Shown: piece by piece, positions 38,123 through 56,866 of the stretch | Layout: every line of letters begins with the position of its first letter | Position numbering within the stretch: the first letter of the stretch is position 1 | Assembly (NCBI RefSeq): GCF_034531395.1 | Contig: NZ_JARVCO010000010.1 | Span: 496,001 to 560,000 of the forward strand | Length of the DNA stretch: 64,000 nt | Direction: 5' to 3' | Source: Pontiella agarivorans | GTDB taxonomy: Bacteria > Verrucomicrobiota > Kiritimatiellia > Kiritimatiellales > Pontiellaceae | Translations under genes and position numbers: made by a program | Notes under the pieces: generated by a model | Database searches by the model: none | Seen by the model: only the letters and a program-made list of their open reading frames with translations | What the model was told of the DNA's origin: nothing

Positions 38123-39162
38123 TTGAAATCCTGAACCGCTTCCGTTACAGCCTGAATGGCGGCAAGGTCGGCATCGGGCGGAACGCCGTGGCCTAGGTTG
38201 AAAATAAAGCCGTTACGTCCCCGCATACGTTCACAGATCCGGCGGGCCTCTTCAGCCGCGGAATTGGGGCGGGCAATCAGAAGCGCGGGGTCGAGATTGC
38301 CTTGGACGGCGACATCGGCGGGGAGACCGTCAGCCACTTCGCGCAGGTCGATACTCCAGTCGATGCTGAGTACATTGCCGCCGGTCTGGACCACCTGTTT
38401 CCAGTTATGGTGCACATTGCGGGCAAATACAATGGTTGGAACTGCGCCGCCGACGGCATCGATGATTCGCTGCATCCATAGTCCGGAATAGCGCCAGAAC
38501 AGATTCGGGGCCAGTGTGCCGCCCTGACTGTCGAAAATCTGAATTACATCCGCTCCGGCATCGATCTGGGCCTTAATGTAAACAATCGTGGCTTCGGTGA
38601 TTTTTTCGAGCAGAGAGAAAAAGAGTTTAGGCTCATCATGCAGGGCTGCGCGCGACCTTAGATTCTCCCGGGAGCTTCCACCTTCGACCATGAACGAGGC
38701 AAGCGTCCAGGGGGAGCCGGCAAACCCAATGATGGCGCGTTCGTCGCCGAGTTCTTTCCGGGCAACTTTGATGGCTTCCGGGGTGTAGCCAATGTGATCG
38801 AGCACATTTTTCGGGTTCAGCCGGTCTACATCGGCTTTGGAATTCAGTGCAAAATCGACTTCCACACCGCCCTTTTCGAGCAGTTCATATTTGGCGCCCA
38901 TGGCTTCGGAAATCACGAGGATGTCGGAGAAGATGACGGCGGCGTCGTAGCCGAAACGACGAATCGGCTGGAGGGTCACCTCCGCCGCCGTTTCCGGGTT
39001 TTGCACCAACTCGGTAAATTTCCGGGTTTCTTTCAAGGCCATGTATTCTGGCAGAGAACGTCCGGCCTGGCGCATCATCCAGATGGGCGGCCGGTCAACG
39101 GGTTCGCATTTGCAGGCACGCAAAAAGCGCTCACGGCAGGTCATAGTGTTTTCTTCGCTCAT
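38119..39162 (-). CDS. hemE: Uroporphyrinogen decarboxylase HemE
   Basis: HemE removes four carboxyl groups from uroporphyrinogen III to give coproporphyrinogen III. The 347-aa TIM barrel has the N-terminal signature RPPIWMMRQAGRSLPEY, the catalytic Asp region GYDAAVIFSDILVISEAMG, FAGSPWTLASFMVEGGSS and the C-terminal FNLGHGVPPDADL. A second ATG six codons in (MTCRERFL) is an alternative start. It is first in a two-gene run with hemN, which takes its product. Confidence 0.96.
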   Translation of the reverse strand: MSEENTMTCRERFLRACKCEPVDRPPIWMMRQAGRSLPEYMALKETRKFTELVQNPETAAEVTLQPIRRFGYDAAVIFSDILVISEAMGAKYELLEKGGVEVDFALNSKADVDRLNPKNVLDHIGYTPEAIKVARKELGDERAIIGFAGSPWTLASFMVEGGSSRENLRSRAALHDEPKLFFSLLEKITEATIVYIKAQIDAGADVIQIFDSQGGTLAPNLFWRYSGLWMQRIIDAVGGAVPTIVFARNVHHNWKQVVQTGGNVLSIDWSIDLREVADGLPADVAVQGNLDPALLIARPNSAAEEARRICERMRGRNGFIFNLGHGVPPDADLAAIQAVTEAVQDFK

Positions 39163-39200
39163 GCGGGGGTTTATGGCACAAATCCGGTCTGGTATTCGAT

Positions 39201-39237
39201 AAAAAAAGCCCCGACACCGTTTCCGGTCGTCGGGGCT
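39201..39237 (-). terminator. Intrinsic terminator of the secreted-protein operon
   Basis: Read on the minus strand, a stem of about 12 bp (AGCCCCGAC...GTCGGGGCT with inner pairs, arms 39207-39219 and 39224-39237) is followed by seven U residues (39201-39207). It follows the pseudogene at the end of the leftward operon and separates it from hemE. Confidence 0.88.
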
Positions 39238-39279
39238 GCCATCCTGTTTCCGGATAAATCGGAATCCGATTTCAGTTCC

Positions 39280-39606
39280 TCATTCTGAATGGACGCGGAA
39301 GAAGGCGGCTCCGTTGGAGGCAGGAATCTCCCAGGTGACGGCATCGGTGATATCTTTGGTGATAACGACGCGGTTCGGCATCGTGTATCCCGGCGTCACG
39401 GTTTCGCCAGCTTCATAAACGCCGTCATTCACCATCACCGTGTCGCCGTCTGAGGCGGCGTCGACCGCCGACTGAATGGTCGTGGAGGCTTTGGCCTACG
39501 TTTCATAGGGCGGCGTGTCTGAACCCGTTGGTGAAACATAGTAGGTCGTGGATAACGCGCTGGACGCTAGTATGGACAAGGCGATGCTATAGGCTGTTTT
39601 TTTCAT
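39280..39606 (-). pseudogene. Internally deleted, stop-interrupted copy of a beta-helix gene
   Basis: The minus strand from ATG 39606 encodes a signal peptide and TTYYVSPTGSDTPPYET, then a TAG stop (39496-39498), then AKASTTIQSAVDAASDGDTVMVN...PNRVVITKDIT. It jumps straight to DAVTWEIPASNGAAFFRVHSE and a stop. Both ends closely match the intact neighbour at 43846-46014 (first about 90 residues; last about 21). The middle 600 residues are missing and the Trp codon of 'WGTAAT' corresponds to the TAG. This is a paralog reduced to its two ends by an internal deletion. It keeps a normal operon position. Confidence 0.85.
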
Positions 39607-39645
39607 AATGAAGTCTCCTCATGAATACTAATCGGTAGGCCGAAG

Positions 39646-40761
39646 TTATTTTTTAATGGGGGTCACTCGGTAGTAACACGCATTGGTGCCGGATGGGTCG
39701 ATGGCGTGTTCGGAGGAACCGCCTTCTCCGGCCAGATAAAACCAGGTGGTCCAGTCGGTTAGATTGGTGGAGGTTTCAACCTGATAGGTGATGCCTTCTT
39801 CGCCAGCGAGCACGAGGCTCAGGTCGCCGGGGTTTTTGCCGGGGCCGATGGTTCCTGCAGGTTCTGCTTCGGGCGGGGTGTTCTCGCCATAAGGCAGGAA
39901 AGTGCCATTGCCCGCGATGACTTCGACGGTGTATTCCACTTTCTTGTTTGTGAAATCTGGTGGTGTTACGTAGCCATTCCCTCCTGTGGCGCACGGACCG
40001 GCCATGGTTCCGAGGTAGCCCCGTCCGGAGCCATCGCCCAGCCACTTCCCCGCGCTTGACGAGTTGCTCAGGAGTGTATCGATCGCAACCATGGCTCCGT
40101 TGGTGACGGTGAAGGAAAGCTCAAAGTCGGTCATGGAAGTTGTACCCGAATTTTCGTCACTCTGACTGAATGTCCGCTCATAACCCAGTTGGTTCTCGAA
40201 GGGGAGCTGGTCGTATTCGGGTAGCATAAAACAACCTTCGGCAATATTCATTAGGTCGCCAACGATGGGAAGAATGCTTCCGTGGGTGTCGGTGATCATG
40301 GAGTAGACTCCGCCATACGCGTCAGCACTACCGATGGATTGGATCCAGTCGTTCACGGTATAGCTGACGCGAATGGTTAGTTCGTCGTCGCAGGTGGCGC
40401 GGTAATAATCGCGCATCCCGACGGTAACCCGCATGCAAGAGTGTTCGACGGTATTGTTGATGGTGGATGCGCCGCAGTATGATCGCAAGACACGGTTGGT
40501 GGGATCGACGGAAAACTGGCCGCGGATTTCGGCCATGTTTTTAACTGAGCCGGTGCCTGCGCTACTTCCGCTACCCCAGCTGCCTTCGTCATACACGTTG
40601 CTTTCATAGGGGTTACTGGTTCCGGAAAAAGCGCAGCGAATGCTGATGGGCTGGTCTTTGTGGTGACCGGAGCCCTCCATCTCCGCCTGCCAGAAGCAGG
40701 TGTTGGCGTAGGTGAGTGCGGGGAGGGCCAGCGCGGTGATTATTAGGTTTTTTAAATGCAT
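39646..40761 (-). CDS. Secreted protein of unknown function
   Basis: The 371-aa product has a signal peptide (MHLKNLIITALALPALTYA) and no recognised catalytic domain. The mature part is rich in Gly, Ser, Thr and Asn with several cysteines (TCFW, IRCAFSG, SYCGAS, HSCMR, ATCDDE, EGCFML), suggesting disulfides. The last about 75 residues (YQVETSTNLTDWTTWFYLAGEGG...YYRVTPIKK) match the terminal beta domain of other secreted proteins in the window. It is the fifth gene of the operon, 30 bp after the GWI-repeat gene. Confidence 0.7.
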   Translation of the reverse strand: MHLKNLIITALALPALTYANTCFWQAEMEGSGHHKDQPISIRCAFSGTSNPYESNVYDEGSWGSGSSAGTGSVKNMAEIRGQFSVDPTNRVLRSYCGASTINNTVEHSCMRVTVGMRDYYRATCDDELTIRVSYTVNDWIQSIGSADAYGGVYSMITDTHGSILPIVGDLMNIAEGCFMLPEYDQLPFENQLGYERTFSQSDENSGTTSMTDFELSFTVTNGAMVAIDTLLSNSSSAGKWLGDGSGRGYLGTMAGPCATGGNGYVTPPDFTNKKVEYTVEVIAGNGTFLPYGENTPPEAEPAGTIGPGKNPGDLSLVLAGEEGITYQVETSTNLTDWTTWFYLAGEGGSSEHAIDPSGTNACYYRVTPIKK

Positions 40762-40791
40762 GGTTTTGGATTTCGTTGAGTTGGTGTTTTT

Positions 40792-41643
40792 TTAATTCGA
40801 GAGCGGTGGACGAGCGATGATTCGGTAGAAACGCGCGTCGCGTGTCGGGCCCCCTTTGATGGACTGGCTGGCGGTGGTTCCGGTTGGATAGGTTGCCGTA
40901 TGTTGGATCCAATTGGTTCCAAGGTCGGAGCTGTATTCAATATTATATTGCCGGCTTGGTTTACTGGTCCAGGTGAGCTTTTGGCTGAAGGAGGTTAGCG
41001 CCAGGTCGGTGATCATGAGCTGATCATCGGCATCCTTCGGGTTGGTGTCGGCCAAATATTCATCGCGGTCCGAAACGCCATCGCCATCCTTGTCGCCATT
41101 GCGAGAGAGCACCGTCAAGGCGTTGCGTCCAAAGGTGACGTAGCGATATTCCCACGCATCGGGGATGCCGTCGAAATCGTTGTCATTTCCGGGAGCCAGC
41201 GAAGTGGTTCGAATGGAGTTGAGATCAATCCACCCCATGTTGGCACTCCAGATATGACCCGTGAGTTCGCCGGTCTTCAGATTGATGGCGGGCTTCCCAT
41301 AGGTTTGCTCAAAGTTGATCCAACCAATATTTGCGCCATAGGCATAGCCGGTCAGGTGACCCTGCCCGTCGTGGTTGACGCCATAGTCGGAAGCATAGTT
41401 TTGAGCGTAGTTTTTTCCGTTCATCGGCGAACCATCGCCCAGATGAATCCAGCCGACGTTGGCGCTGTAGAGATAGCCAGAGCAGTAAAACTCGCCGACG
41501 ATCATGCCGTTGGTTCCATCGGCCCGCGCATCCACCCAGCCAATATTGGCGCCATAAGCTTCGCTGTTGACGGGAGCGATGGTGCTTTCCGAGAAAGCGG
41601 TTGAAACGGAAAGAATGGATAAAAGCATAATAAGCCTTTTCAT
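40792..41643 (-). CDS. Secreted protein with four (Y/W)xAN(I/V/M)GW(I/V) repeats
   Basis: The 283-aa product has a signal peptide (about 1-18), then four copies of a motif: YGANIGWVD (about 30), YSANVGWIH (about 59), YGANIGWIN (about 102) and WSANMGWID (about 132). The copies are separated by glycine-rich turns with G(D/E)L/HLTG(Y/H) between the later copies. A thrombospondin-3-like segment follows (DNDFDGIPDAWEY...NGDKDGDGVSDRDEYLADTNPKD), then the terminal beta domain (YNIEYSSDLGTNW...RFYRIIARP). The repeat may form a small beta solenoid or propeller. Start set at 41643, before the signal, 10 bp after the upstream gene. Confidence 0.72.
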   Translation of the reverse strand: MKRLIMLLSILSVSTAFSESTIAPVNSEAYGANIGWVDARADGTNGMIVGEFYCSGYLYSANVGWIHLGDGSPMNGKNYAQNYASDYGVNHDGQGHLTGYAYGANIGWINFEQTYGKPAINLKTGELTGHIWSANMGWIDLNSIRTTSLAPGNDNDFDGIPDAWEYRYVTFGRNALTVLSRNGDKDGDGVSDRDEYLADTNPKDADDQLMITDLALTSFSQKLTWTSKPSRQYNIEYSSDLGTNWIQHTATYPTGTTASQSIKGGPTRDARFYRIIARPPLSN

Positions 41644-41653
41644 GCGTCGTTTC

Positions 41654-43810
41654 CTAGAAGCTGAGATTGTCTGAAGGCGCAACAGTACCGGATACCAGCG
41701 GGACATGGTTTCCGGCGGTATCGCTGTAGTTTGTCGAGCAGTTCCATACTCGGTTGTTGAGTAGGATATTATCTGCTTGTTGGAGATTGATACCGATCCC
41801 ACATTCGTAAATTCGGTTTCCTTCCAGCATGTTATTGCCGGATTCATAGTCGGAATACTGCAATAGTATTCCTTCCTGACACTGCCGCACGGTGTTGTTC
41901 ATCAGTGTGACATCATCAAATAAAACTTCAATTCCAGCACGGGTGTAACGCCCTTCGTAATTCTGACCTTCAACTAGGCAATCTTCGATTAAAGCGTCAT
42001 CCCATATATCGATACCGCACAGCGTGTTATATCTTGCTGTACACTGCCTCAAGTTTCCATTGTAGACCAAAAAACCATTTTCCGCGTTGTATGCGCTGTT
42101 GCAGTTCAGCGCCTCAGCATTATTCTCCAAGCGCAGTCCGTCCTCTGTGTTGGATGACGTGCTGCAGTTTTTTGCAACAGAGTTTAGAAGATATATTCCG
42201 ACGTTATTTCCTCTTGATTGGCTGTCTTTGACAAAAGAACCGCCTAAAGACATACCGTATAAGGCATTGTTTATTGTCCGGCAGGCCTCAATACGGCCTC
42301 CTGAATCAACGCAGATGCCATACGCCTGATTTGATGACACATTGCATTCGGAAAGCGTTCCGTATTTTTTCACATAGACTCCGCCGCCCTTGTTGTCCGA
42401 AATATTCAGCCTTTTGAGATTGGAATATTCTCCGGCAATGGCAACTGCCGCTGGTTCAGGGGAAAAAGTTGCATACGATGTGGTCCCTTCCCAGTTTGAA
42501 ATATTTCCATTCGAGAGACTAAAGTTATTAAAACCGGGAAGCTGATGGACAGCATGGCCGCTACCGGTTCCTGGGCCGATCAGGCTATGTCCGGCCATGT
42601 CGATTGACACATTGTCGGCTTGGACAGTAATGCCATTTACACCTTGTTCGCTTACGGTTAATGATCCCGTAAGACGCACCGTAGATGGCCAGTCCAGCGT
42701 TTCCGGAATTTCGCTCAAAAGGAGGTTGAGTTGGTTGCCGGCGGCCATGTCGTAGTTATCTTCGGTGCCGGAGACCTGATTTTCAAAAACGCGGTTTTCG
42801 GTGCCGGTTATATAAAGACCTTTTTCCGTGTTTTCGCCGCCAATGATATTATGACCGATGGCGTTGCGCTCGCTGGCAACGTGAATGCCCCACATATTGT
42901 CTTGAACTGTGTTGCCCTTTACCAAGTTGTCGCTTCCTGTGATTTGGATGCCTGCACCGTCTTGGTGGGTGGTGGGGCGGTTGCCGTTGGAGGAGGCGGA
43001 GCAGTTTTCAATGGAACATTTTTCGGTAATCTCAAAGCCGCTACGCTCATTGCTGGAGGCGTTGCAATTGATGATCTGTGTTCCGGCCTCGCCCTTAATG
43101 CCAGAGTGCTGATTTGCAAATGAGGTGCAGTTGCGGACGATTGAATTGTATTGAGCGAGAATGCCTTCGGATCCGTTATAATAGACCGAACAGTTTTCGA
43201 TGACGTTGGCTTGGCCGGAAGAGATGCCCCACGTGCCATTTTCAGAGGCTTTGCAGTTCAGGATCGAACCCGCGAATCCGCCATAGATACCCGCCGTTGT
43301 ATTACGCACCGCTTGGCAATCTTTGATCTGAACCCCGTAGAGCCCTCGCTCATTTTCAATCGCGATAACGTTTTGAATTTGGCTCTCAAAACCGGCGCTC
43401 ACCGCATAGCCGCCAAGCCAATTGCGGATGGTGCCACTAAAGACGCGGCAGCCCTTGTTGAACGTTCCCGTTTTGATGGCCGATCCGCTGCTTTCGCCGG
43501 GGCCGGTGAGGGTGAAGCCCATTAGATCGATCGTTACATCATCTGCCTGAACATAAATTCCGTGGGCTCCGGTCGCCGTCATTGTCAGGTTGCTGACGAC
43601 ATAGTAGGAGCCGGATTCGCTTATGGTGAACGGTAGGCTGGAAATGGGGGTGCGTACTTCGGCACTGGCGCTGCCTGATACCGCTGAATAGATTTCGTCG
43701 AGCGATTTCATGGTGGGGGCCGGAGCGCCCGGAGGGGTTAAACTGCCTTGGCCGAAAACCATTCCGGTTATCGACATGAGGATGAGTGTGCTGAGGATTC
43801 TTTTTTTCAT
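41654..43810 (-). CDS. Secreted right-handed parallel beta-helix protein (NosD/pectate lyase-like fold)
   Basis: The 718-aa product has a signal peptide (MKKRILSTLILMSITGMVFGQ). It contains two tandem beta-helix units, each starting with the same opening: GIYVQADDVTIDLMGFTLTGPGESSGSAI and GITVQADNVSIDMAGHSLIGPGTGSGHAV. Many rungs follow of the type IENCSVYYNGSEGILAQYNSIVRNCTSFANQHSGI. Rungs alternate N-C-x(S/T) turns typical of PbH1 repeats. No lyase catalytic triad was recognised, so a carbohydrate-binding or adhesive role is as likely as an enzyme. The start at 43810 is chosen by the signal peptide. Confidence 0.82.
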   Translation of the reverse strand: MKKRILSTLILMSITGMVFGQGSLTPPGAPAPTMKSLDEIYSAVSGSASAEVRTPISSLPFTISESGSYYVVSNLTMTATGAHGIYVQADDVTIDLMGFTLTGPGESSGSAIKTGTFNKGCRVFSGTIRNWLGGYAVSAGFESQIQNVIAIENERGLYGVQIKDCQAVRNTTAGIYGGFAGSILNCKASENGTWGISSGQANVIENCSVYYNGSEGILAQYNSIVRNCTSFANQHSGIKGEAGTQIINCNASSNERSGFEITEKCSIENCSASSNGNRPTTHQDGAGIQITGSDNLVKGNTVQDNMWGIHVASERNAIGHNIIGGENTEKGLYITGTENRVFENQVSGTEDNYDMAAGNQLNLLLSEIPETLDWPSTVRLTGSLTVSEQGVNGITVQADNVSIDMAGHSLIGPGTGSGHAVHQLPGFNNFSLSNGNISNWEGTTSYATFSPEPAAVAIAGEYSNLKRLNISDNKGGGVYVKKYGTLSECNVSSNQAYGICVDSGGRIEACRTINNALYGMSLGGSFVKDSQSRGNNVGIYLLNSVAKNCSTSSNTEDGLRLENNAEALNCNSAYNAENGFLVYNGNLRQCTARYNTLCGIDIWDDALIEDCLVEGQNYEGRYTRAGIEVLFDDVTLMNNTVRQCQEGILLQYSDYESGNNMLEGNRIYECGIGINLQQADNILLNNRVWNCSTNYSDTAGNHVPLVSGTVAPSDNLSF

Positions 43811-43845
43811 GGTTGTGATCCTGTTTAATTTAACTGAAAGATGAT

Positions 43846-46014
43846 CTAATCGGCGTGGACGCGGAAGAAGGCGGCTCCGTTGGTGGCGGGGATTTCCCAT
43901 TCAACGGCATCCCCGACTTCGTTCCAAACATTGGAAGCGAGGTTGTCGGTTTGTTTAAGCTGCAGGCTGAGTTCGAGCATATTGCCGGACGTCTGAAGCA
44001 TGAGGTTCCCCAGATTTAAATCCTGTATAGAGTCGGCGGTATAGAGACCATGCGCGGCGGGATCGTCGGTCACGTTGGCTTCGCCCTGGGCAATCGCCGC
44101 AGATTCATCGAACGTGGGGCAGAAGCCCATTGCAGCCTCATCGCCGTCTTCTCGGCCATCGCCATCGCTGTCGGTGTTGTTCACGCCGGAGCCGAAGGCC
44201 ACCTCTTCGGCATCGGTCAGACCATCATCGTCGTAGTCGCCCGCGCCCGCGAATTCGTAGGCGCCCATGTCGGCAATGGCAGACCCATCCCCATTGCCAT
44301 CCAGCCAGCGGGGGAGCCCGTCGATATCGGTCATAATGGCTCCCGATTGAGTGACGGCTGCATCAATGCAGGGGGAGTCCGGTTGAAGGCGCAGTGAAAG
44401 ATACTCAAAGTCGGGTGCGTTGGTGGTGCCGGTTTGTCCGGCCTCTAAGACCGAGGTGCAGCAGGCAAGAACGGTGTCCATTTGGGACAGATCATCGCCG
44501 GAACCATTTCCATCCTCATTCGTGTCGGCCAGATTGTCGACGATGATGCTGTTGTAGATGTGCCCTTTGCTGCACCCGCCGCCGTCGTTCACGGCGCTGT
44601 TTCCTTTCAGCGTGCAATGGTGCAGCTCGCTATCATAGGTGCCGCCTCCCCAGATGGCGGTATTGTCGATGAAAACAGCATTGTGAATGGTCCCGTCGTA
44701 CGCGCCTCCGCCTTTGGATGCCGTATTTCCGGAAAGGGTACAGCGGGAGAGCGTATCGAAATAGCTCCCGCCTCCTGAGCCTCCTCCGTCATTGCCGATG
44801 AGGGTGCACCCGGTAAGGGTGGCATAAGCACTTCCGCCTCCATGGGTGGTGGCGACGTTTTCGGTAAGCGTACAATCGGTCAGGGTGCCACCGTAAACGC
44901 CGGCGCCTCGATCAGCGCGGTTTCCATCGAGTACGCAGTCCGTCAGCGTGCTGTTACTGTTACCTCCTCCCGAACCCGTGGCGATGTTGTTCTTAATGGT
45001 GCATTTTTCCAAGGTGCTGCTGGAGGTTCCCCCGCCCGAACCCGCCGTATTTTGCGAGAGGGTGCAGTTGGTTAGATCCGATTGATAGGCTCCTCCGCCG
45101 TTGGTCGCAACATTCCCGGTGATCAGGCAGTCGTTCAGTGTGGCGGACCGGCAGCCGCCGCCGTGCCGCGCAGTATTGTTCGAAAGCGTGCAGGCCGACA
45201 GGGTGGAGTGATGGCTGCCGCCGCCGGAATCAGCCTGGTTACCCGAAAAGGTGCAGTTTGAAAGCACACCAAAATGGCTTCCGCCTCCCAGTGAAAGGGC
45301 TTCGTTGCCGGTCAGGGAACAGTCGGTGAGACTGCCCACCGAGCTGCCGCCGCCATTGTTCGCTGTGTTGCTGGTCAGGGTGCAGTTCTGCAACGTGCTG
45401 GAGCAACTCCCGCCGCCCTGATTGTCGGTTGCATTGCCGATGAATTCACAATTGACCAGTTGGCCGCCATAACTTCCGCCTCCGCTATACGTGGCCGTGC
45501 AGTTTTTGATGATGCAGTTGCTCACGATGCCGGACCCGCTGGCCCCGCCGTTACCGCTCAGCAGGTTGATGCCGCCACCGGACTGATCATATGCGGTATC
45601 TCCATCGGTCGTGTTGGCGTGGCCGTTTTGGAGAGTGAACCCGATCAGTTCACCTTTGGTCATATAGACGCAGCGAACCAGCACATCATTCCGGCCCAAT
45701 AAGATGTTGTTTCCGGCAATAAAGGTGTTCGCCGCCCCGCCTAAAGATTGGACGGTTATATCTTTGGTGATCACCACCCGGTTGGGCATGCTGTATCCGG
45801 GCGTCACCGTGTAGCCCAGATTATACGTGCCGCTGTTCACCAGCACGGTATCGCCGTCTGAGGCGGCGTCAACGGCGGTCTGAATCTTGGTGGCAGCGGT
45901 GCCCCAGTCGGAGTAGGGCGCCGTGTCGGAGCCGGTGAGTGAAACATAGTAGGTCGCGGCCATCGTACTGGCGGCCGTAATAAGCAGTGACAATCCGAGT
46001 GCAGCTGATTTCAT
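43846..46014 (-). CDS. Secreted beta-helix protein with Pmp/GGGS-type rungs
   Basis: The 722-aa product has a signal peptide, an opening shared with several neighbours (TYYVSLTGSDTAPYSDWGTAATKIQTAVDAASDGDTVLVNSGTY) and about sixteen rungs of roughly 23 residues. These have the form GGGSxxSTLxNCTLSGNTAxx (for example SGGGSYGGQLVNCEFIGNAT), like chlamydial polymorphic membrane protein repeats. An acidic thrombospondin-3-like segment (GDYDDDGLTDAEEV...TDSDGDGREDGDE) and a terminal domain ending FFRVHAD follow. The pseudogene at 39280-39606 is a deleted copy of it. It is 35 bp from the next gene and 21 bp from the giant gene upstream. Confidence 0.83.
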   Translation of the reverse strand: MKSAALGLSLLITAASTMAATYYVSLTGSDTAPYSDWGTAATKIQTAVDAASDGDTVLVNSGTYNLGYTVTPGYSMPNRVVITKDITVQSLGGAANTFIAGNNILLGRNDVLVRCVYMTKGELIGFTLQNGHANTTDGDTAYDQSGGGINLLSGNGGASGSGIVSNCIIKNCTATYSGGGSYGGQLVNCEFIGNATDNQGGGSCSSTLQNCTLTSNTANNGGGSSVGSLTDCSLTGNEALSLGGGSHFGVLSNCTFSGNQADSGGGSHHSTLSACTLSNNTARHGGGCRSATLNDCLITGNVATNGGGAYQSDLTNCTLSQNTAGSGGGTSSSTLEKCTIKNNIATGSGGGNSNSTLTDCVLDGNRADRGAGVYGGTLTDCTLTENVATTHGGGSAYATLTGCTLIGNDGGGSGGGSYFDTLSRCTLSGNTASKGGGAYDGTIHNAVFIDNTAIWGGGTYDSELHHCTLKGNSAVNDGGGCSKGHIYNSIIVDNLADTNEDGNGSGDDLSQMDTVLACCTSVLEAGQTGTTNAPDFEYLSLRLQPDSPCIDAAVTQSGAIMTDIDGLPRWLDGNGDGSAIADMGAYEFAGAGDYDDDGLTDAEEVAFGSGVNNTDSDGDGREDGDEAAMGFCPTFDESAAIAQGEANVTDDPAAHGLYTADSIQDLNLGNLMLQTSGNMLELSLQLKQTDNLASNVWNEVGDAVEWEIPATNGAAFFRVHAD
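43922..43936. repeat. TTCCA-N5-TGGAA match in the beta-helix gene
   Basis: Exact match, spacer AACAT, encoding SNVWNE. It may be coincidental coding sequence. Confidence 0.35.
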
Positions 46015-46035
46015 GGTGATTTCTCCTTTAGAACG

Positions 46036-49000
46036 TTAGTCGATCCAGACGTTAATTTTGTAGAAGGCGGCGGTGTTGGTGTTTTCGACGGTATAGCTCT
46101 CTTCTGGGTAGTGGACGGCGGGATAGATGGGCTGGAAGGAATTGGTCAGGCTGTCGGTCCAGAGCACCTGATAAGCGCGGTTGTAGACAGAATCCCAGTG
46201 CAGCACCGTGATGTCGTTGGTCAGTTCCTGCTGCGTGATGCGGAAGTAGGAGTCGGAATCGAACGGATCGGTTCCGGCCACATATTCTTCGTAGTTGCTA
46301 TGCGGGTCGGTGTCGGCGTTTTCTGAAGCGATGGCATTGGTTACGCCGCCGAAGTTTTCAAGCTCCCAGGCATCGTCCATTTCATCGCCGTCGGAATCGC
46401 CGGTCAGCCACATTTCGCAGGCGCCCATATCCACGGTTCCGTATCGGATGCGATACAGGCCGTTATAATCGATGTCGGTGGAAACGTAGGAATTCTCGCC
46501 GGCGTTGATGCACGGCGAGAGGTTGCTCAGGTAGTAGTCGCCGCCGCGAATGAGAATATCCGGAGCCATAGCCACAAACAGCGGCGCATTGGTGATGTTG
46601 CCGTAATAGGTGCTGGGGGTGAGATCGGGGCTGCAGCTGTTTCGCGCTGAAGCAGAGGCGAGGTCGGCCTTGTTTTCAGCGTTAAAGGCCACATTACTCC
46701 AAACGATGGAGTTATAAACACTGGATCCATAAACGCCGCCGCCGTTCTCCGCTCCGTTTTCTGCAACGGTGCAGTTGTAGAGCGTGGTGCTGTAGGTACC
46801 ACCGCCATATTGAATGGCTGCATTGTTGTGGATCGTGCAGTTGTGGGCCGTTCCTTTATGCGTTCCGCCGCCATGTGCTGAGGTGGCATAGTTGAAGAAA
46901 ATATCGCATCGATCGCTGGTGCAGCTGGCCAACCCGCCGCCGGACGGCGCGGTGTTGTCTGTGAGGGTGGAGAAGGAGACTGTACTGTAATAGGCCCCGC
47001 CGCCCACTGTTGTGGCGGTATTGTTCGAAAGCATACATTCGTTCGCGATTCCGCCGTAAATGCCGCCGCCATATTGAGCGGAGTTGCTGCTGATCGTGGA
47101 TTGGGTCAACGAGCTTTCGTAGGCTGCACCTCCGCTGGAGGAGGCCACATTGTTGGATAAGGTGCAGTGTTCGAGGGTGCCTTTATAGACCCCGGCTCCG
47201 TTGTAGGCCACGCAGCCTTCGATGGTGGAAGAGGTGATGAGCGGTGCGCTGTTGGCACAATAGATTCCGCCGCCTTCGTTGTTGCTGTAGCCGAGTGTAG
47301 AAGCTGCGCCGCTGCGGATGGTTAGATACTCAAGCACACATTCACTGTAGCCGAGGTTGAAGCAGCGATTGCTGCTGCCCGCGTCAACCGTTGCCGCGCT
47401 GTCGAACGCGCCGGAAACGCAGATCGACTTATCAATGTTGACGGTGGCGGTGATGTGGTTGATGCCGCGGACAAAGACGTTGCCGCCATAGACGTTCTGT
47501 GCATCGACGGCCGCCTGGATGGTGGCTTTCGGTGCGTCCCAACTGAGGCCGTGGTTAGCGTCGTCGCCGGTGACGGGATCGACGTGCAGAGAGCTGGTGA
47601 AGGCCGAGGCCACCATCACCTGCTGCGTGAAGGCGGTGCCCTGCTGGTTGTCGAGGTTGTAGCCGGTCAGCACCACGTCGTAGGTGCCCGGGTCGGCCCA
47701 GGTGTGGATGATCGTTCCGAGTGCGTTGGTGATGCGTGTGCCGTCGGCGAAGTCGATGATTGTCTGTTTGGTTTCGCCGTTGAAGCTTGCGATGTAGGGG
47801 GCGGCAACATCTTCCAGTACGTGGGTCGGGCCGATCAGTCCAATCTCAATGTCGGGCGAGAGGGCCATATCGGGTTCATCGCACCCCATGGGAGGTGCGT
47901 TGAGCCAGACCGCGCCGTCGATGTCGGTTCCGACCGCAGTTGCCGGATCGCCGAGGTCGCGGCAGGGCGATTCAACCGCGAGGTGCGAGGCGGACACCAG
48001 CGCCGGTTGATTGGTGATGCAACCGTCCTCACCGTGCGTGGCGTCGGGCGAGCAGGTGTAGTCGGGGTTGGCGCTGTACAAATCGTTGCCTTCGTCATCC
48101 GCGGTGTTGAACCACGCGATGCAGCTGTTGGCTTTTCCGGAGAACATGCCGCCGCCCTTGGTGCCGGAATGGTTGGCGGTGATGGTGCAGTGGTTGGCGG
48201 TGGTGTAGGCCATCGCGCCGCCATAGTCGGTGGCTTTATTGCCGGTAAAGCAGCAGCTGTTGGCCGTGCCGTTAAGCATGCCGCCTCCTTGCCTCAAGGT
48301 GCGGTTGCCATAGAAATAGCAGCGGTTAGCGGTGCCATAGCGCATGCCGCCGCCTCCGTTCAGCGCCATGTTTCCGTTGAAGCGGCAATCATGTGCGTTG
48401 CCGTCGGCCAAGCCGCCGCCATAGCTTGCGGTGTTGTTTTCGAAGACGCAGCGGTTGGCGGTGCCATAGCGCATGCCGCCGCCATAGTTGGAGTCGCAGC
48501 GGTTTTCGCGGAAGATACAGTCGGTCGCGATGCCGGCGTACATGCCGCCGCCCGCGTCGCGCGCATAGTTACCGATAAATTCGCAGCCGTTGGCGCGGCC
48601 CATGTAGAGCCCGCCGCCGGAGCCATTCCAGCTCCAGTTATTGGTGAAGAGACAGTCGGTCGCCGTGCCGTAGGCCAGAGCGCCGCCCTTGGTGGCGGAG
48701 TTGCCGTCAAATACGCAGTTGGAGATTTGTGGACTGAGTGAATAGTTGCAAAAGATGCCGCCGCCGGAATAATACTTGGTGCTGTTACGATCTCTGCCGT
48801 TGCGGAAGGTGATGTCGCGAACGGTGGTGTGGTTATCGGCGATATCGAGGCAGCCGACGCCGGTGTAGTCGTTGGTGGAGCCGCCGTCAATGATGGTGTG
48901 TTCTGCGCCGTTGGCACTGAGCAGCTGGATGTCTTTATCGATGCTGATGGTTTCTGTCAGCGTGTACGTGCCATTGCTGACCACAACACGCCCGCCGTGC

Positions 49001-51831
49001 AGCTCCTGAGCATCGACGGCAGCCTGAATCGTCTGCTTGGCGTTAAACCAGCTGCGGCCATTGTTGTTGTCGTCTCCATCGGTCCGCACATAAAGGGTAC
49101 TGAAGTCGGCGTCGAATACGGTGATGGTGTTGGTGATTGAATAGCGGTCCTGGTGATTGTTGTTCCAGGCAGTGACGATCAGGTCGTACGTTCCCGGCGT
49201 GCTCCAGCTGTGTCCGAACGGAATAACGCCGGAGCCCGTGGCGATGAATCCGTCGCCAAAGTCGATTTGATCCCGCTCAAACGCCCCTTGGAAGTCGACG
49301 GTATAGAAGGCGTTGAATCCGGCCGGAATTTCGGTGGGGCCATTCAGCGTAATGGTAACGGCTCCTGTTGGCGGGTCGGCGGGTTCATCGCAGCCGATGG
49401 CGGGAGCACTGCGCCAATGTTCGCCATCAATATCGAGGGTATCGCGCAGAATATCGCCCGTGCCGGTGCAGGGGGAACTCAACTTAATGTGCGAAGCGGA
49501 GACCAGCTGCGGATTGTTGGTGATGTTGCCGTCCACGCCGTGCTCCAGGTCGGGAGAGCAGGAGGTGGTGATGGTTCCATATGCAATGTTGTCGAACGAT
49601 TGCAGGGCCTCGTTATACCAGATAATGCAGTGGTCGAGGGTCGAGGAATAGGTGCCGCCGCCATTCACGGCCCGGTTGGCCGTTAAAGTGCAGTGCGTGG
49701 CTGATCCTCCATACAGGCCGCCGCCGTACTGATTCGCTTTGTTTCCGTTAAAGACGCAGTTATACGCATCGGTGCCATACGCGCCACCACCGTAGGAGGT
49801 GGTGCTGTTTCCAATGAATTGGCAGTCGTAGGCCGTGCCTTCATACATCGCGCCGCCATTCTTTAGATTGGTGTTGTTTTTGAAGACGCAGCGTGTTGCC
49901 ACACCGCCGGACATGGCACCGCCGCCCGATCCGCCGCCGAGGCCTCGGTTGTTTTCAAAGAGACAGTCGACCGCAATTCCGCTTAGCATGGCACCGGGGC
50001 CGTTGCCGGCCGCATTGAACGAGAAGGTGCAGTTCGTTGCCGTGCCGCGCCACATGATGCTGCCGCTGTTTCCGGTGTTTCCTGTAATCAGACAGGCTTC
50101 GACCACGGGGTCGTGTGAGGAACTGTAAATTGTTCCTCCGCTGGTGCCTTCGGGTTCGTAATGGCCGCCATTGCGAATGGTGAAGCCTTTGATGCGGCAG
50201 TGCTGGTTGCCCAAGTGGAAAATGCGGTGGTAGGCATCGCCTTGGATGATGGTCTGCTCGGCTCCGTTGAGGCTTTCAATGCGGATGTTTTTATTCACGT
50301 TGATTTGTTCGGTAACTGAATAGGTACCGTTGGAAACCAGCACGAGGCCGCCAACATAGTCCTGCGCATCCACGCCGGCCTGAATGGTTTTCCTGGCGGT
50401 CGCCCAGCTGAGGCCGTCGTTGGAGTCATCGCCGTCGGCATCGGAGACATAGATGGTTTTGGTTTCGTCCTTGCGAACATAGATGGTGTTGGTGATGGAG
50501 GTGGAATACCCGCTCTTGCCGGTCAGGACCACGTGATAGTTTCCGTAGGCCCAGGTGTGGGATTGGGTAAGGCTGGTTGAGTTGGTGAGGGCGCTACCGT
50601 CTCCGAAATCCAGAATGGTTTGGGTGACCGGACCTTCCACGTAGGCATCAAAGAAAATTTCCTGCCCTGCGGTAATGAACTGAGGCAGATTGTTGTGTGC
50701 ATGAATTAATCCTTCTGAGGTCACTTCATCACATCCGATGGATGGGGGGGTTGCCCAGGCCGCACCCTCAATATCCGTCAGCGCGGCATAGGCGGCGTCT
50801 CCTGCTCCGACGCAGGGAGAGGCTGCGGCAAGGTGGAAGAGTGAAACCAGCTGCGGATTGTTGGTGATGCTGCCGTTGGTCGTGCTGTCCGGCGTACAGC
50901 AGGAATAGATTTGGGTCCCGTAAACGTTCGGGCTGTTATCGCTGGCGGTGTTGTTCCAAAGGATGGAATTATAGGCCCTGCCATAAGTCATGCCGCCGCC
51001 AATGTTCGCTGTGTTTTCGGTGATGGTGCAGTGGGTTGCGGTGACCTGATAGAGGCCGCCACCATAATTGGAGGAGTGGTTCCCGGAAATGGCGCAGCCT
51101 ACTGCGCTGCCCGAAATCATTCCGCCGCCGCTTCCGCTGGCCGTGTTGGCCAGGATAAGGCTGTTGGTGGCCGTGCTGTTATACAGGCCGCCGCCTTCTC
51201 TTGAGGAAACATTATTCTGAAAGGTGCAACCTGTTGCCGTGATTTGATAGCCGCCTCCTCCCTGAGTGGCCTCGTTGTTGAGAAAAGAACAGTCGGTTGC
51301 AATGGTGCTGTTGGCACCGCCGCCGTAATACGCGCCGGTATTATTTTGGAAGGTGCATTTCGAAGCACGGCCTTTCACCATGCCGGTGCCGTCGGTCTTT
51401 TCAATGATGCAGGAGTTCACCAAGGGCTGTGTGCCGGAGCAGCGAACGGCCGGATCCTTGCCGTTGCGGATTGTGAAGTTATACAGATCGGAGTCGGTAT
51501 CACCCAGATCAAAGCAGGTATAGAGGCCCTGTCCGTCAAACACAACATCCTCGGGGCCATCCACCCAGAAGCCCTGGATGGAAATGTCGTTTGTCACGAC
51601 AATCGAAGAGGTCAGTGTGTAGGTTCCTTCCGCGACAAAAATCTGATCCCCGTCCTCCACGTAGGGCAGCACTTGCTGAACCGTGTGTGCCGCCTCGGTC
51701 CAGTCGTTGGTATAGGGTGGAATTTGGACCAGACTGTTGACATTGACCCAGTAGGTTTGATTCGCCTGCGCCAGACCCGCAAGAGAAAGAAGCAGAGTTA
51801 TGACCCAATGCTTAGTGTTTAATATATTCAT
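46036..51831 (-). CDS. Giant secreted protein: four beta-helix modules joined by PKD domains
   Basis: The 1931-aa product has a signal peptide (HWVITLLLSLAGLAQA) and four repeated modules starting near residues 25, 455, 908 and 1412. Each opens with a line like LYVRTDGDDNNNGRSWFNAKQTIQAAVDAQ...VSNGTYTLTETI, followed by GGG-type rungs (ATNCTFxNNxAxxGGGxY). Modules 1-3 each end in a conserved SPC.G.GD......DI.GA.W...P.IGCDE block and a PKD-like domain (SWAYGNYHVVLTG; SWSTPGTYDLIVTA; TWADPGTYDVVLTG). A thrombospondin-3-like segment and terminal beta domain close the protein. Such a protein is probably displayed or released as an adhesin or polysaccharide binder. It is first in the operon. The ATG at 51831 is chosen over one 23 codons upstream. 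Confidence 0.82.
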   Translation of the reverse strand: MNILNTKHWVITLLLSLAGLAQANQTYWVNVNSLVQIPPYTNDWTEAAHTVQQVLPYVEDGDQIFVAEGTYTLTSSIVVTNDISIQGFWVDGPEDVVFDGQGLYTCFDLGDTDSDLYNFTIRNGKDPAVRCSGTQPLVNSCIIEKTDGTGMVKGRASKCTFQNNTGAYYGGGANSTIATDCSFLNNEATQGGGGYQITATGCTFQNNVSSREGGGLYNSTATNSLILANTASGSGGGMISGSAVGCAISGNHSSNYGGGLYQVTATHCTITENTANIGGGMTYGRAYNSILWNNTASDNSPNVYGTQIYSCCTPDSTTNGSITNNPQLVSLFHLAAASPCVGAGDAAYAALTDIEGAAWATPPSIGCDEVTSEGLIHAHNNLPQFITAGQEIFFDAYVEGPVTQTILDFGDGSALTNSTSLTQSHTWAYGNYHVVLTGKSGYSTSITNTIYVRKDETKTIYVSDADGDDSNDGLSWATARKTIQAGVDAQDYVGGLVLVSNGTYSVTEQINVNKNIRIESLNGAEQTIIQGDAYHRIFHLGNQHCRIKGFTIRNGGHYEPEGTSGGTIYSSSHDPVVEACLITGNTGNSGSIMWRGTATNCTFSFNAAGNGPGAMLSGIAVDCLFENNRGLGGGSGGGAMSGGVATRCVFKNNTNLKNGGAMYEGTAYDCQFIGNSTTSYGGGAYGTDAYNCVFNGNKANQYGGGLYGGSATHCTLTANRAVNGGGTYSSTLDHCIIWYNEALQSFDNIAYGTITTSCSPDLEHGVDGNITNNPQLVSASHIKLSSPCTGTGDILRDTLDIDGEHWRSAPAIGCDEPADPPTGAVTITLNGPTEIPAGFNAFYTVDFQGAFERDQIDFGDGFIATGSGVIPFGHSWSTPGTYDLIVTAWNNNHQDRYSITNTITVFDADFSTLYVRTDGDDNNNGRSWFNAKQTIQAAVDAQELHGGRVVVSNGTYTLTETISIDKDIQLLSANGAEHTIIDGGSTNDYTGVGCLDIADNHTTVRDITFRNGRDRNSTKYYSGGGIFCNYSLSPQISNCVFDGNSATKGGALAYGTATDCLFTNNWSWNGSGGGLYMGRANGCEFIGNYARDAGGGMYAGIATDCIFRENRCDSNYGGGMRYGTANRCVFENNTASYGGGLADGNAHDCRFNGNMALNGGGGMRYGTANRCYFYGNRTLRQGGGMLNGTANSCCFTGNKATDYGGAMAYTTANHCTITANHSGTKGGGMFSGKANSCIAWFNTADDEGNDLYSANPDYTCSPDATHGEDGCITNQPALVSASHLAVESPCRDLGDPATAVGTDIDGAVWLNAPPMGCDEPDMALSPDIEIGLIGPTHVLEDVAAPYIASFNGETKQTIIDFADGTRITNALGTIIHTWADPGTYDVVLTGYNLDNQQGTAFTQQVMVASAFTSSLHVDPVTGDDANHGLSWDAPKATIQAAVDAQNVYGGNVFVRGINHITATVNIDKSICVSGAFDSAATVDAGSSNRCFNLGYSECVLEYLTIRSGAASTLGYSNNEGGGIYCANSAPLITSSTIEGCVAYNGAGVYKGTLEHCTLSNNVASSSGGAAYESSLTQSTISSNSAQYGGGIYGGIANECMLSNNTATTVGGGAYYSTVSFSTLTDNTAPSGGGLASCTSDRCDIFFNYATSAHGGGTHKGTAHNCTIHNNAAIQYGGGTYSTTLYNCTVAENGAENGGGVYGSSVYNSIVWSNVAFNAENKADLASASARNSCSPDLTPSTYYGNITNAPLFVAMAPDILIRGGDYYLSNLSPCINAGENSYVSTDIDYNGLYRIRYGTVDMGACEMWLTGDSDGDEMDDAWELENFGGVTNAIASENADTDPHSNYEEYVAGTDPFDSDSYFRITQQELTNDITVLHWDSVYNRAYQVLWTDSLTNSFQPIYPAVHYPEESYTVENTNTAAFYKINVWID
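50954..50968. repeat. TTCCA-N5-TGGAA match in the giant gene
   Basis: Exact match, spacer AAGGA, encoding SILWN of a recurring beta-helix segment. Protein constraint may explain it. Confidence 0.35.
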
Positions 51832-52022
51832 GTATAATTTCCGCTCTCGGGTTGTTCTTAATCTTGCAATAAAAGAGGGAAAGATTTTTAAGACATCCAA
51901 ATCCTAAGATACAGGTAAATCCGTACAATAATATACGTCTATATACTAATCCGCATATGCGTATATAGATTCCTGGTTAGGGTTTCCCGCCCAGGCGTCA
52001 TGGTTTTGCATTGAAGGTTTTG

Positions 52023-52087: not shown

Positions 52088-53203
52088 CTACTTGGTTTTC
52101 ACGGCATCGAGTTCAATTTCAAACAGGAGGTCGTGACGGCAGACATCTGCGTGGGAAATCGCTACGGGCAATTCCGGCAGACCATTGGCCAAACAGTATT
52201 TTTCGAGCAGATGCGCATCGCCGGCGTCTTTGAAATAAGCGATAGCGCGGGCGGTGTTTTTCCAGTCCATGTCGCGCGATTTCAGGATTTCGTGGACGAC
52301 GGCCATCGTTAACTCGATCTGCTTTTCGGTATTGCCGAGATGGACGGTTTCGCCGCCGGGTTCAATGCTGGCGGTTCCGGAGATGGTCAGCAGGCGGGAG
52401 CCGGGCTGATCGATTTCCACGGCGCGGGCGAAGGATGATTTGTAGTCGAGCGCCGGGCACTGCAGCGGGGAGGGAACGGGGAATACTTTCACATTGTCGT
52501 TTTTCGGTTTCACGGCGAGCAGCGCGGCCACCATTTCTTCGCCGGCGGCGGTGCCGGCGCCAATGCCGGTGGAGGCCGGTACCATTTTGTCGAACGTGCC
52601 TTTTTCCTTGAAGAAGTTCGTGCGGACCACATTAAATTCGTCGTACCACTCCAGCAGGTTGTTGAGATAGAGCCACGTGCGGGCAATATCGGTAAATTTC
52701 ATGTCGGCCTGTTTGAGGAGGGTTTCCATTTTTTCAAAAACCGCCTGGGCCTGTTTTTCGCGGCCGAGGCTGAGATCATCAGCTCGAAGATCGCCGAGCA
52801 GGCAGTAGCGGGCGTCATCCGTCTCGTACCAGTTGCCGACTTTTCGGTCGCCGTCCATGACGGGGTGAAGGTCGGCCCCGGAGAGGGCGATAAACTGGGT
52901 GCCGGTAATGGTGGATCCGGAGCAGGCATCGCCGTGCAGCAGGGTGAGCGGCCAGTCCAGTTTTTCGATGGAGGAAACCGCCTGCGGGTAAAATTTACGC
53001 CCGCCGAAGACATATTGAAATGCAATGCGGGCATTGCGTGCCGCCATTTCGGCGGTGACCTGATCGACGACCTCATTAATCGTTTCTTCGGAGGCCTGAG
53101 CGGTGATGATGTGTGCCGTAACTCCGCCGTGCGGGAATTCGACAATCTGCAGGCTGTGGTCTGCTGTTACATCTGACTTATCCATTTCCAGAATTCCATT
53201 CAT
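52088..53203 (-). CDS. Two-domain RidA/YjgF-superfamily protein, possibly chorismatase-like
   Basis: The 371-aa product has the RidA fold in its C-terminal half (LLTISGTASIEPGGETVHLGNTEKQIELTMAVVHEILKSRDMDWKNTARAIAYFKDAGD...DVCRHDLLFEIELDAV). A related N-terminal half (TQFIALSGADLHPV...AQAVFEKMETLLKQADMKFTDIARTWLYLNNLLEWYDEFN) precedes it, joined by a PASTGIGAGTAAGEEMVAALLAV segment. Tandem RidA halves with a central STGIG stretch and a terminal Glu are also features of FkbO/Hyg5-type chorismatases, which cleave chorismate. That assignment is tentative. A simple RidA enamine/imine hydrolase is the alternative. Stand-alone gene between two terminators. Confidence 0.72.
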   Translation of the reverse strand: MNGILEMDKSDVTADHSLQIVEFPHGGVTAHIITAQASEETINEVVDQVTAEMAARNARIAFQYVFGGRKFYPQAVSSIEKLDWPLTLLHGDACSGSTITGTQFIALSGADLHPVMDGDRKVGNWYETDDARYCLLGDLRADDLSLGREKQAQAVFEKMETLLKQADMKFTDIARTWLYLNNLLEWYDEFNVVRTNFFKEKGTFDKMVPASTGIGAGTAAGEEMVAALLAVKPKNDNVKVFPVPSPLQCPALDYKSSFARAVEIDQPGSRLLTISGTASIEPGGETVHLGNTEKQIELTMAVVHEILKSRDMDWKNTARAIAYFKDAGDAHLLEKYCLANGLPELPVAISHADVCRHDLLFEIELDAVKTK

Positions 53204-53416: not shown

Positions 53417-56400
53417 TTAAACGGCGATCGGGTCTGCACCGATTGTGCCGACGAGGTCTTCGATGTAGGCATCGGTTTCCACGTAGGCCAGTCGTTTTTC
53501 AACCGTTTCAAGGCGGGCTTTACAGTCGAGGCGCTCGACTTCGGCAGTATTATGTTTCTGGCTGATGAAGTTGTTGAGATACTCGATATGTTTCCGGCAG
53601 GCGTCGGCTTTGCGCTGCTGTTTGAGTTTGAGGCGTTCCTTGTACCAGTCACTTGCAAGGACCGCATCGCGCTCGAACATACTGCGGAATGTCGGGTCGG
53701 CGGCGTCCATTCCTTCGCAGGTTCCTTCGGCCATGATGTAGATCAGGGCTTTGAGCGGAGGAATAAAGCTTTCAACCGATCCGTCTTCGATGTAGCGCCG
53801 GGCAATCATCTGCTGGGTTTCCATAATGTTGTTGATGCCATCGACATACTCATCCATCCCTTGGAGTTCGGGTTTGAGCATATCGGGTTCAAACACTGTT
53901 TTCGGTGCTTCGAATACTTTGCCGATAAAGTCATTCACGAAGCGTTTGGTGATCCGGTAACCGAGACGGCTGGCCAGCACCGGTTTGCCTTCGTGTTCGA
54001 AGTCTTCGAGTTTTTCAAGCTGTCCGGCGGCGATCATATGTTTCGGATCGCGTTCGGCTACACTGAGCCGGCACCAGAGTTCCGGAATCAGGATGCTGAT
54101 GTCGTGTTCGACTTTGTGTTTGGTTCCGATGTACCCGGCCGCAGTGCTGAACCCGTTGCTGCCGGTCAGGATGAACGAGAGCAGGGCGTTGTTCAGGTCG
54201 GCCGTGGCCGGAAGGGCGTTGAACGGGCCTTTGGTCAGTGCGCCCTCGGTGCCTGCGCCGGTGGTGGACGGTGACTTGCCGGTCAGGGAGCAGATGAAGT
54301 CCATGAACAGTTCCGGCAGTTCCTGGTAGTGGATCGGTCCATACACCGCCAATGGGCGAATGCCTGGTTCGGCCGGATTGTTGCGGCGACCCGGGAGGAC
54401 GGCGTTTACCGGCGTGAACAGTGGGTTTCCGGCTTTGATTTTCCGGAACAGGCAGGTGGATGTGAGAGCCAGATATTTCGGCATGCCGTCCACGAGGTCG
54501 GGCCGGGTCTGCAGATAACGCGGATTCTTCGTCGGTTTTCCATCGACGATGCGCGGCTGGGCGCTGTCGACAAAAAGCTGATCCGGGTTTTTGGACTCTG
54601 CGGCTTTTTTGATCAGTTTCCGCATCGGCTTGGTGTACTGATGGTACATCACCGAATGGTCCATAATCTCCTGCGCAACACTTTTGTGCAGCGGGGCAAA
54701 GTTGGAGAGGAAGTTATTCGGAGCCGCCATATCCGCTTCCGCCGCTTTGTCGAAACCGCGGTTGATCGCTTCGTCCGGCCGCTGGAACAGGCGGGATTCG
54801 CAGTTGTCCACAATTTTGACGGATTTGCATTCGGCATAGTCCGGATTCAGGTCAGTCAGTTTGTCAGACGGCACCACGATGGATGCGGAGATATCATCTT
54901 CCCACTGAATTTTTTCCGCCGGAATAAAATCGGTACGCAGTTTAGACGTCCGCCAGATACCATCGGTGTCCATGCCGACGCGCAGGTAGTTGCCTTTGAC
55001 TTTTTTGCCGTCGAACTTCAGTTCATGCCCTTTTTCACCATTAATGAAGTCCACGCTGAGATGCGAGCGCCAGTCATCGCCCCATTCCGGTTTGTAGAAG
55101 CGCTTGAGCAGGAACACGAGGCCTTTGATACGGTTGGGTACAGAAGCCAGCCATTCGTTGAATTCATCGGTATTTTCTTCCGACGGATTAAGCAGTTTGA
55201 TGACCGAACCGAGCGAACGTTCGTTTCCAAGAATTGGACGGGTTTTATGTCCTTCTTCTCGCGGGACTTTGAAGCGCACGCTGTAATCCTTATCAAGGAT
55301 TTCCTGAACCGCGTTCAAGTCGTTTTCGATGTCCGCCACAAAAATAGAGCCGGAAATCATGGCATCGGTCAGCGATTTTGAAATTTCCGATTTTCCGCCG
55401 CCGGAAACGGTGCACGGTTTGTGGCAGAGCGTGCCTTCTGCCATGGTGCCGACGAGGCGCCAGGTGCCGGCGGTGGGGCTCTGCTTCAGGGCGACGCGGT
55501 AACCGGATGGGTAGATGAAGACGCGGTCTTCCAGAAGTTTAAGGCTTTGTGTTTTTCCTGATTTGGACCAGGTGACGCTTTGGTCCGGAATGCTGAATTC
55601 AGCGGTTTCCGGAACAAAAAAGACATTCGGGTGTTCGTTATCGGTGGCATAGCCCTCCGGGTGAATCGTCACTTTATCGCCCAGCACATGCATGACATTG
55701 GCCATCGTGTGATCAAGTTGGGTAAGCGTGCCGTCCGGTGAGAAGCGTTCCGCCAGATTGTACTGGGGCAGAGCAAGTGCGCCGCCGGCATGTTCCTCTT
55801 CGCAGAGTCCGTAGAGATTGGCGGCAAAACCGATTTGGGTTTTTACTTCTTTTTTGCAATAGCCGAAGTAGTTGTCGCCAATAATGGTCACCATTACGCC
55901 GGATTCATCGCGTGCAGTAATTTTGAACGGGGTACCGCCGTTGTAGAGCTCATCCGGTGAGGCCCAGCACATACCGTCGCGCTTCTGGCGTTCGGTGGCG
56001 TCGTCAATATAAGGCAGGCCGAGATCTTTCTTCTTCAGTCCGCAGATATGCGGAGCAAGAATAACGCAGCCGGTGTAGCCCGTCCAGCTGTCCGGGTCCA
56101 GAGCGGCATCGTTTTCCGGCAGGTAGGGATCGCCGGCATTACCGAAAATGGATTCCACAAAGTCGAGATTACAGACAAAATTTCCCGGAACAAAGAAACG
56201 CACTTCCATGTTCTTTTCCGGCAGAAATCCGGGGACCTCCGGGCTGACCATCGGGCGAAGCAGCAGAGAGACCTGTGTGGCCGCTTTTTTCTCCTGCGCC
56301 GAAGTGAAGGGAAGCTGCATGTGCTCTTCCGGTGGGTTCAGTGCAACTTCGAGCAGTTTTGCGTAGGTTTGTTTCGGCACTTCGAGCTTATCGGCCGGTA

Positions 56401-56866
56401 CAGGAAATCCGCCTTCACAGATGTGGAAAACACCTTTGGTCGTGCGGCGGTCGTGTTTCGGGTTGTGCAGTACGCCCTGCTGAATGCGATACGATTCCAC
56501 TCCGTTTGCAATAAACTCATCTTTGTGTGGCGGGAGCGAAAGTTCTCTCGCCAGACCATGGCGGTCGAGGGTGAGCGTTTTATTCGGAAGGGTCGGAACC
56601 TCGTCGCAGGCATCGCTCAGGTATTCATTGAGAAAGTGTTGAATACGCTGGTCCACCGGACAGAGGTAGTCATGCAGAATGCGGTTCTTTTCCTTGATGT
56701 TGTTGATCAGGTCGAACGCAATATCGAGCTCTTTTCCGTCTGTTTTTTCATAGATCGGCTGATCCAGAGCGGAAAGTTTTAAATTCAGGTAGGAAACCAG
56801 AGATTTCCGATGGCTTTTTGAGGCCTGATCAACCCCGATGCCTAATGATTTTTTCAAGTCTTTCAT
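53417..56866 (-). CDS. Pyrophosphate-type phosphoenolpyruvate carboxykinase
   Basis: This enzyme would interconvert oxaloacetate plus pyrophosphate with PEP, phosphate and CO2. The 1149-aa length is far above ATP- or GTP-PEPCK (about 540-620 aa) but equals the PPi-using family known from Entamoeba and propionibacteria. Two PEPCK hallmarks are visible: GDNYFGYCKKEVKTQIGFAANL (about 330-351; compare G-T-E-Y-A-G-E-M-K-K), which holds the metal-binding lysine, and CTVSGGGKSEISKSL (about 485-499) in place of the nucleotide P-loop, followed by IFVADIENDLNAV. It has an AGGAG ribosome site and stands alone. The assignment comes from family knowledge and motif reading, without a database search. Confidence 0.75.
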   Translation of the reverse strand: MKDLKKSLGIGVDQASKSHRKSLVSYLNLKLSALDQPIYEKTDGKELDIAFDLINNIKEKNRILHDYLCPVDQRIQHFLNEYLSDACDEVPTLPNKTLTLDRHGLARELSLPPHKDEFIANGVESYRIQQGVLHNPKHDRRTTKGVFHICEGGFPVPADKLEVPKQTYAKLLEVALNPPEEHMQLPFTSAQEKKAATQVSLLLRPMVSPEVPGFLPEKNMEVRFFVPGNFVCNLDFVESIFGNAGDPYLPENDAALDPDSWTGYTGCVILAPHICGLKKKDLGLPYIDDATERQKRDGMCWASPDELYNGGTPFKITARDESGVMVTIIGDNYFGYCKKEVKTQIGFAANLYGLCEEEHAGGALALPQYNLAERFSPDGTLTQLDHTMANVMHVLGDKVTIHPEGYATDNEHPNVFFVPETAEFSIPDQSVTWSKSGKTQSLKLLEDRVFIYPSGYRVALKQSPTAGTWRLVGTMAEGTLCHKPCTVSGGGKSEISKSLTDAMISGSIFVADIENDLNAVQEILDKDYSVRFKVPREEGHKTRPILGNERSLGSVIKLLNPSEENTDEFNEWLASVPNRIKGLVFLLKRFYKPEWGDDWRSHLSVDFINGEKGHELKFDGKKVKGNYLRVGMDTDGIWRTSKLRTDFIPAEKIQWEDDISASIVVPSDKLTDLNPDYAECKSVKIVDNCESRLFQRPDEAINRGFDKAAEADMAAPNNFLSNFAPLHKSVAQEIMDHSVMYHQYTKPMRKLIKKAAESKNPDQLFVDSAQPRIVDGKPTKNPRYLQTRPDLVDGMPKYLALTSTCLFRKIKAGNPLFTPVNAVLPGRRNNPAEPGIRPLAVYGPIHYQELPELFMDFICSLTGKSPSTTGAGTEGALTKGPFNALPATADLNNALLSFILTGSNGFSTAAGYIGTKHKVEHDISILIPELWCRLSVAERDPKHMIAAGQLEKLEDFEHEGKPVLASRLGYRITKRFVNDFIGKVFEAPKTVFEPDMLKPELQGMDEYVDGINNIMETQQMIARRYIEDGSVESFIPPLKALIYIMAEGTCEGMDAADPTFRSMFERDAVLASDWYKERLKLKQQRKADACRKHIEYLNNFISQKHNTAEVERLDCKARLETVEKRLAYVETDAYIEDLVGTIGADPIAV

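Follow-up and report, generated by a model that had tools for sequence, protein, structure and literature searches.

A two-ended stub at the end of a secreted-protein gene cluster in Pontiella agarivorans is very probably a pseudogene of an old paralog

Introduction

Interrupted coding sequences of the Mycobacterium tuberculosis complex (PMC2277376) and pseudogenes of Rickettsia (PMC2374718) are marked by in-frame stops, truncation and an intact homolog in the genome. The locus described here, a 108-codon stub in a 64,000-nt window of Pontiella agarivorans DNA (the whole stretch that was analyzed, to which all positions refer unless another sequence is named), shares these three features. It differs from them in that the whole repeat middle is missing while both ends stand in frame, and is otherwise unremarkable among them. 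A superficial literature search found nothing on this locus.

The second comparison is with right-handed beta-helix repeat proteins. The 1954-aa protein encoded in the same gene cluster matches PF13229 (Beta_helix), PF05048 (NosD) and PF02415 (Chlam_PMP) above their cut-offs, and the 722-aa protein, the intact relative of the stub, is related to it (40% identity over residues 302–639). The 722-aa protein itself matched no Pfam family at E <= 0.1, and the stub matched PF22842 alone, with 15.9 bits under a cut-off of 25.2; thus, neither is a beta-helix protein by Pfam cut-off. The stub further differs from such proteins in that nearly all of the repeat region is gone.

Results

The stub was compared with the 722-aa gene at the protein and DNA levels (Table 1). 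Stub residues 1–87 and 83–107 each matched the 722-aa protein (66% identity, E 2.3e-30, and 68% identity, E 3.6e-6, respectively), and these E values exclude a chance resemblance of the two ends. In the reverse comparison, residues 1–87 and 700–721 of the 722-aa protein matched the stub, and the in-register identities were 57/87 for the first part and 17/21 for the last. The DNA sequences agreed at 161 of 209 positions (77%) in the local 5′ match and at 48 of 56 (86%) in the 3′ match, with exact-match stretches of 18, 20, 14 and 28 nt. Relative to the 722-aa gene, the stub lacks nt 262–2103, that is, 1842 nt or 614 codons, and the frame is kept. The first-pass annotation, made from the letters alone, had estimated about 90 and about 21 matching residues and about 600 lost; the alignment gives 87, 21 and 614, in agreement with these figures. 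That annotation named no strand; the stub lies on the minus strand. The DNA-level alignment that it had proposed for placing the junction was run, and the junction falls between stub codons 87 and 88.

Table 1. Positions of the stub, its parts and the related features in the window
Feature	Position	Strand	Basis
Stub, very probably a pseudogene; 108 codons + TGA	39280..39606	-	Translation; two matches to the 722-aa gene
Stub 5′ part, codons 1–87; signal-peptide-like start and first beta-helix-like stretch	39346..39606	-	57/87 identical to the 722-aa protein
TAG in frame (codon 37), where Trp is conserved	39496..39498	-	Translation; Trp in 11/11 other aligned sequences
Deletion junction, codons 87/88	39345..39346	-	Global alignment: stub nt 261/262
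Stub 3′ part, last 21 codons + TGA	39280..39345	-	17/21 identical to the end of the 722-aa protein; 28-nt exact run
Terminator-like hairpin with U tail, between stub and hemE	39201..39237	-	-26.9 kcal/mol (value for the whole folded stretch containing the hairpin), z -4.5, 0/200 shuffles as stable
Intact gene for the 722-aa secreted-type repeat protein, paralog of the stub's probable parent	43846..46014	-	Homology; ortholog in sister genome G030
Part of the 722-aa gene without stub counterpart, 1842 nt	43912..45753	-	DNA alignment

The TAG at codon 37 is the only internal stop among the 108 codons of the stub frame. It stands where a Trp was expected, as had been noted before, and Trp occupies this position in each of the 11 other aligned sequences, the 722-aa protein and its 734-aa ortholog included.

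We then considered how the middle was lost. Within the 722-aa gene, the breakpoints carry no direct repeat, with at most 1 nt common to both. Deletion at shared repeats, by recombination or slippage, as first suggested, is not borne out by this comparison, since the breakpoints agree at a single base beside the junction. With ~25% of positions differing between the stub and the 722-aa gene, however, a short repeat in the lost parent could be hidden.

On the minus strand, the gene order is 1954-aa, 722-aa, 748-aa, 351-aa, 371-aa, stub, hemE (PF01208) and hemN (PF06969). The stub begins 39 nt past the 371-aa gene (39646–40761), and a ribosome-site-like GAGGAG precedes its start. Since a strong hairpin with a U tail separates the stub from hemE, the cluster ends with the stub, in keeping with its description as operon-terminal; the layout suggests that the cluster genes form one transcript. 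A simple pattern scan of 39140–39720 listed no promoter-like site, nor did it list the hairpin (39237–39201). Because of this terminal position before the hairpin, no cluster gene downstream is harmed by the loss of the stub.

The origin of the stub was addressed with a tree and with G030, a sister genome within the genus. The tree was built from a 68-residue N-terminal segment of 12 sequences, including the stub and the 722- and 734-aa proteins; stop-free matches covering residues 8–64 or more of the 68-residue query were kept as rows, and shorter ones and duplicates were dropped. In this short segment the stub branches outside the 722/734 pair with moderate support (UFBoot 80 for protein and 87 for DNA; FastTree 0.878 and 0.928), and the group of three received UFBoot values of 89 and 93. 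This placement would put the duplication before the split of the two species. On the simplest reading of these sequences, the stub would be the remnant of an old paralog and not a copy of today's neighbor. The proposal that it is a pseudogene of that neighbor is thereby revised in its source, which the trees place in an older paralog, and stands as to the lost middle and the nonsense codon.

In G030, the 734-aa ortholog of the 722-aa gene adjoins the ortholog of the 1954-aa gene (56% and 53% tblastn identity, respectively), and the pair sits away from the hemE region. The latter region holds hemE and relatives of two further genes, the 1149-aa gene and the L-PSP-like 371-aa gene (window 52088–53203), with a single 447-aa gene in the place of the cluster. 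The 748-aa and 371-aa cluster genes had no match in G030 at E <= 0.001. Of the cluster, the 1954- and 722-aa orthologs alone are kept there, at another place. The secreted-protein cluster, which here lies between the L-PSP-like gene and hemE, is thus an inserted or relocated block relative to G030 (window 39280–51900; G030 L045 11658–15221 and L038 8371–16452).

We next evaluated selection on the retained codons. Pairwise over codons 20–87, dN and dS were 0.204 and 0.733 between the stub and the 722-aa gene, and 0.147 and 0.763 between the 722- and 734-aa genes. Among the 39 differences private to the stub, 22 were non-synonymous or stop changes, against 30.4 ± 2.4 under neutrality (4000 throws, P 0.001), a test that makes the stub look more constrained than it is, since it scores changes on the 722/734 ancestor branch as stub-private; one of its two scored "stops" (TAC to TAA) is an artefact of base-by-base scoring, the real codon being GAA. 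For the last 21 codons alone, the same test was not significant (P 0.16). Because of this overstatement, a branch-wise test on the fixed tree was added, in which the stub branch measured 0.053 at positions 1+2 versus 0.48 at position 3. Of 100 codon bootstraps, 92 gave a ratio of the two under 1 and the other 8 did not; the test is noisy, with the 722 branch itself beyond measurement at third positions. The predominance of third-position changes indicates that the gene probably still worked through most of its time as a separate gene and was broken late. The relaxed-selection test gave a constraint-like pattern over the whole stub branch, the interval after inactivation being too short to show relaxation, and such a pattern would require a late inactivation. 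These sequence comparisons suggest that the gene, at whatever length, was constrained through most of its own history.

The locus carries several of the marks by which a pseudogene is recognized, namely clear homology to an intact gene, a premature stop, a loss of 614 codons and a short form that is not conserved in the relatives sampled. We consider it very probable that the stub is a pseudogene of an old 722-aa-type paralog that was once the last gene of the cluster. Several points speak against decay and would be matched by a kept short gene: the frame is otherwise open, a ribosome-site-like sequence precedes it and the retained codons look constrained. The leading alternative is that the stub is a mini-gene kept for a small secreted peptide, with a TAG that arose by recent mutation, varies between strains or reflects a sequencing error. 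The codons that follow this stop, together with the tail, carry 17 non-synonymous or stop changes versus 23.4 ± 2.0 expected from neutral throws, as such a gene would predict, but this signal is equally expected of a gene that was full-length until recently. Likewise, a kept short gene would show a frame-preserving deletion, which has a 1 in 3 chance of arising anyway. The 21-residue tail, moreover, preserves only part of the 722-aa end region, and a stub copy beside hemE was sought in G030 and not found.

The search for the short form in relatives also argues against a mini-gene. The order-wide search, over 43 genomes, gave 42 matches at E <= 1e-8, distributed over 14 genomes, and the stub is the only one that spans both ends in one short frame, the next shortest frame being 233 aa. 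The first-pass annotation had suggested looking for mini versions in sister strains; at this threshold, none of the 42 other genomes (0/42) has a short two-ended form, the genomes compared all being from other species of the order. In the genus search (28 genomes, E <= 0.001), two shorter N-terminal frames were found, of 119 aa in G010 and 118 aa in G027, and neither has a stub-like tail. A wider search of genome contigs returned two loci, both partial relatives in Krumholzibacteriota records. Taking both sides together, we regard a kept mini-gene as unlikely.

We consider it more doubtful still that the stub is alive in another way, either as a minimal secreted peptide of start plus end read through the TAG or as a silent cassette recombining with the 722-aa gene. 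If the cassette reading were true, the exact-match stretches would serve this recombination.

That the TAG is read through or recoded, so that a 108-residue protein is made, is highly improbable. The presence of only one stop in 108 codons would suit such a protein, but TAG is the terminal stop of 4 of 19 window gene calls that were checked, two of these being the 722- and 748-aa genes. Nothing in the genome (~97% complete) exceeds the cut-off for PylS; the PylS C-terminal family gave one weak match (24.9 bits versus a cut-off of 178.15 bits), and a similar sub-cut-off match occurs in 12 of 14 control genomes. With the short form absent elsewhere, TAG an ordinary stop and PylS below cut-off, a short gene that is kept or read through is unlikely, and the earlier alternative of a kept mini-gene read through at the TAG finds no support. 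As for an assembly artefact, in which a copy of a gene from this repeat-rich family was collapsed, we give it almost no credence, since collapse requires sequence common to both sides of the join, where 1 nt is shared, and the stub and the 722-aa gene differ at about a quarter of their bases.

Discussion

The pseudogene reading can be put as a course of events. The terminal gene of the cluster would have been an old paralog of the gene for the 722-aa beta-helix-like secreted protein, constrained for most of its separate existence, and this duplicate was probably functional for a long time before its repeat middle went. About 614 internal codons would then have been lost, most simply through a single in-frame deletion whose breakpoints carried no notable repeats. 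A G-to-A nonsense change would have struck the conserved Trp codon, in an order relative to the deletion that we do not assign. The remaining product would have at most 36 residues, mostly signal peptide, and function would thereby probably have been lost.

On this reading, the stub is ordinary bacterial gene decay and matters little. It illustrates clearly how changeable clusters of repeat-rich secreted-protein genes lose members, in this case at the end of a cluster, where the loss has no downstream cost.

Genes have been gained, partly copied and lost in this cluster, a pattern into which the stub fits. Residues 191–371 of the 371-aa cluster gene occur alone on another contig of the same genome (G000:C12:1114724-1115266; L056 2724–3266, minus strand; 75% identity); this C-terminal half has no recognizable 5′ half and is a second truncated relic of the cluster. 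In G027, a 114-aa frame (L055 403–747, G027:C62) contains the N-terminal part of the family only, with Arg in place of the Trp, and is probably another broken family member.

Two observations concern the surroundings. The 1149-aa protein (53417–56866, minus strand) is 85% identical in G030 and matches no Pfam family at E <= 0.001, and is thus conserved and unnamed. In G030, a 153-aa gene (L045 15473–15934), whose putative product resembles a PIN/VapC-type protein, lies between hemE and hemN; in the window, these two genes overlap directly.
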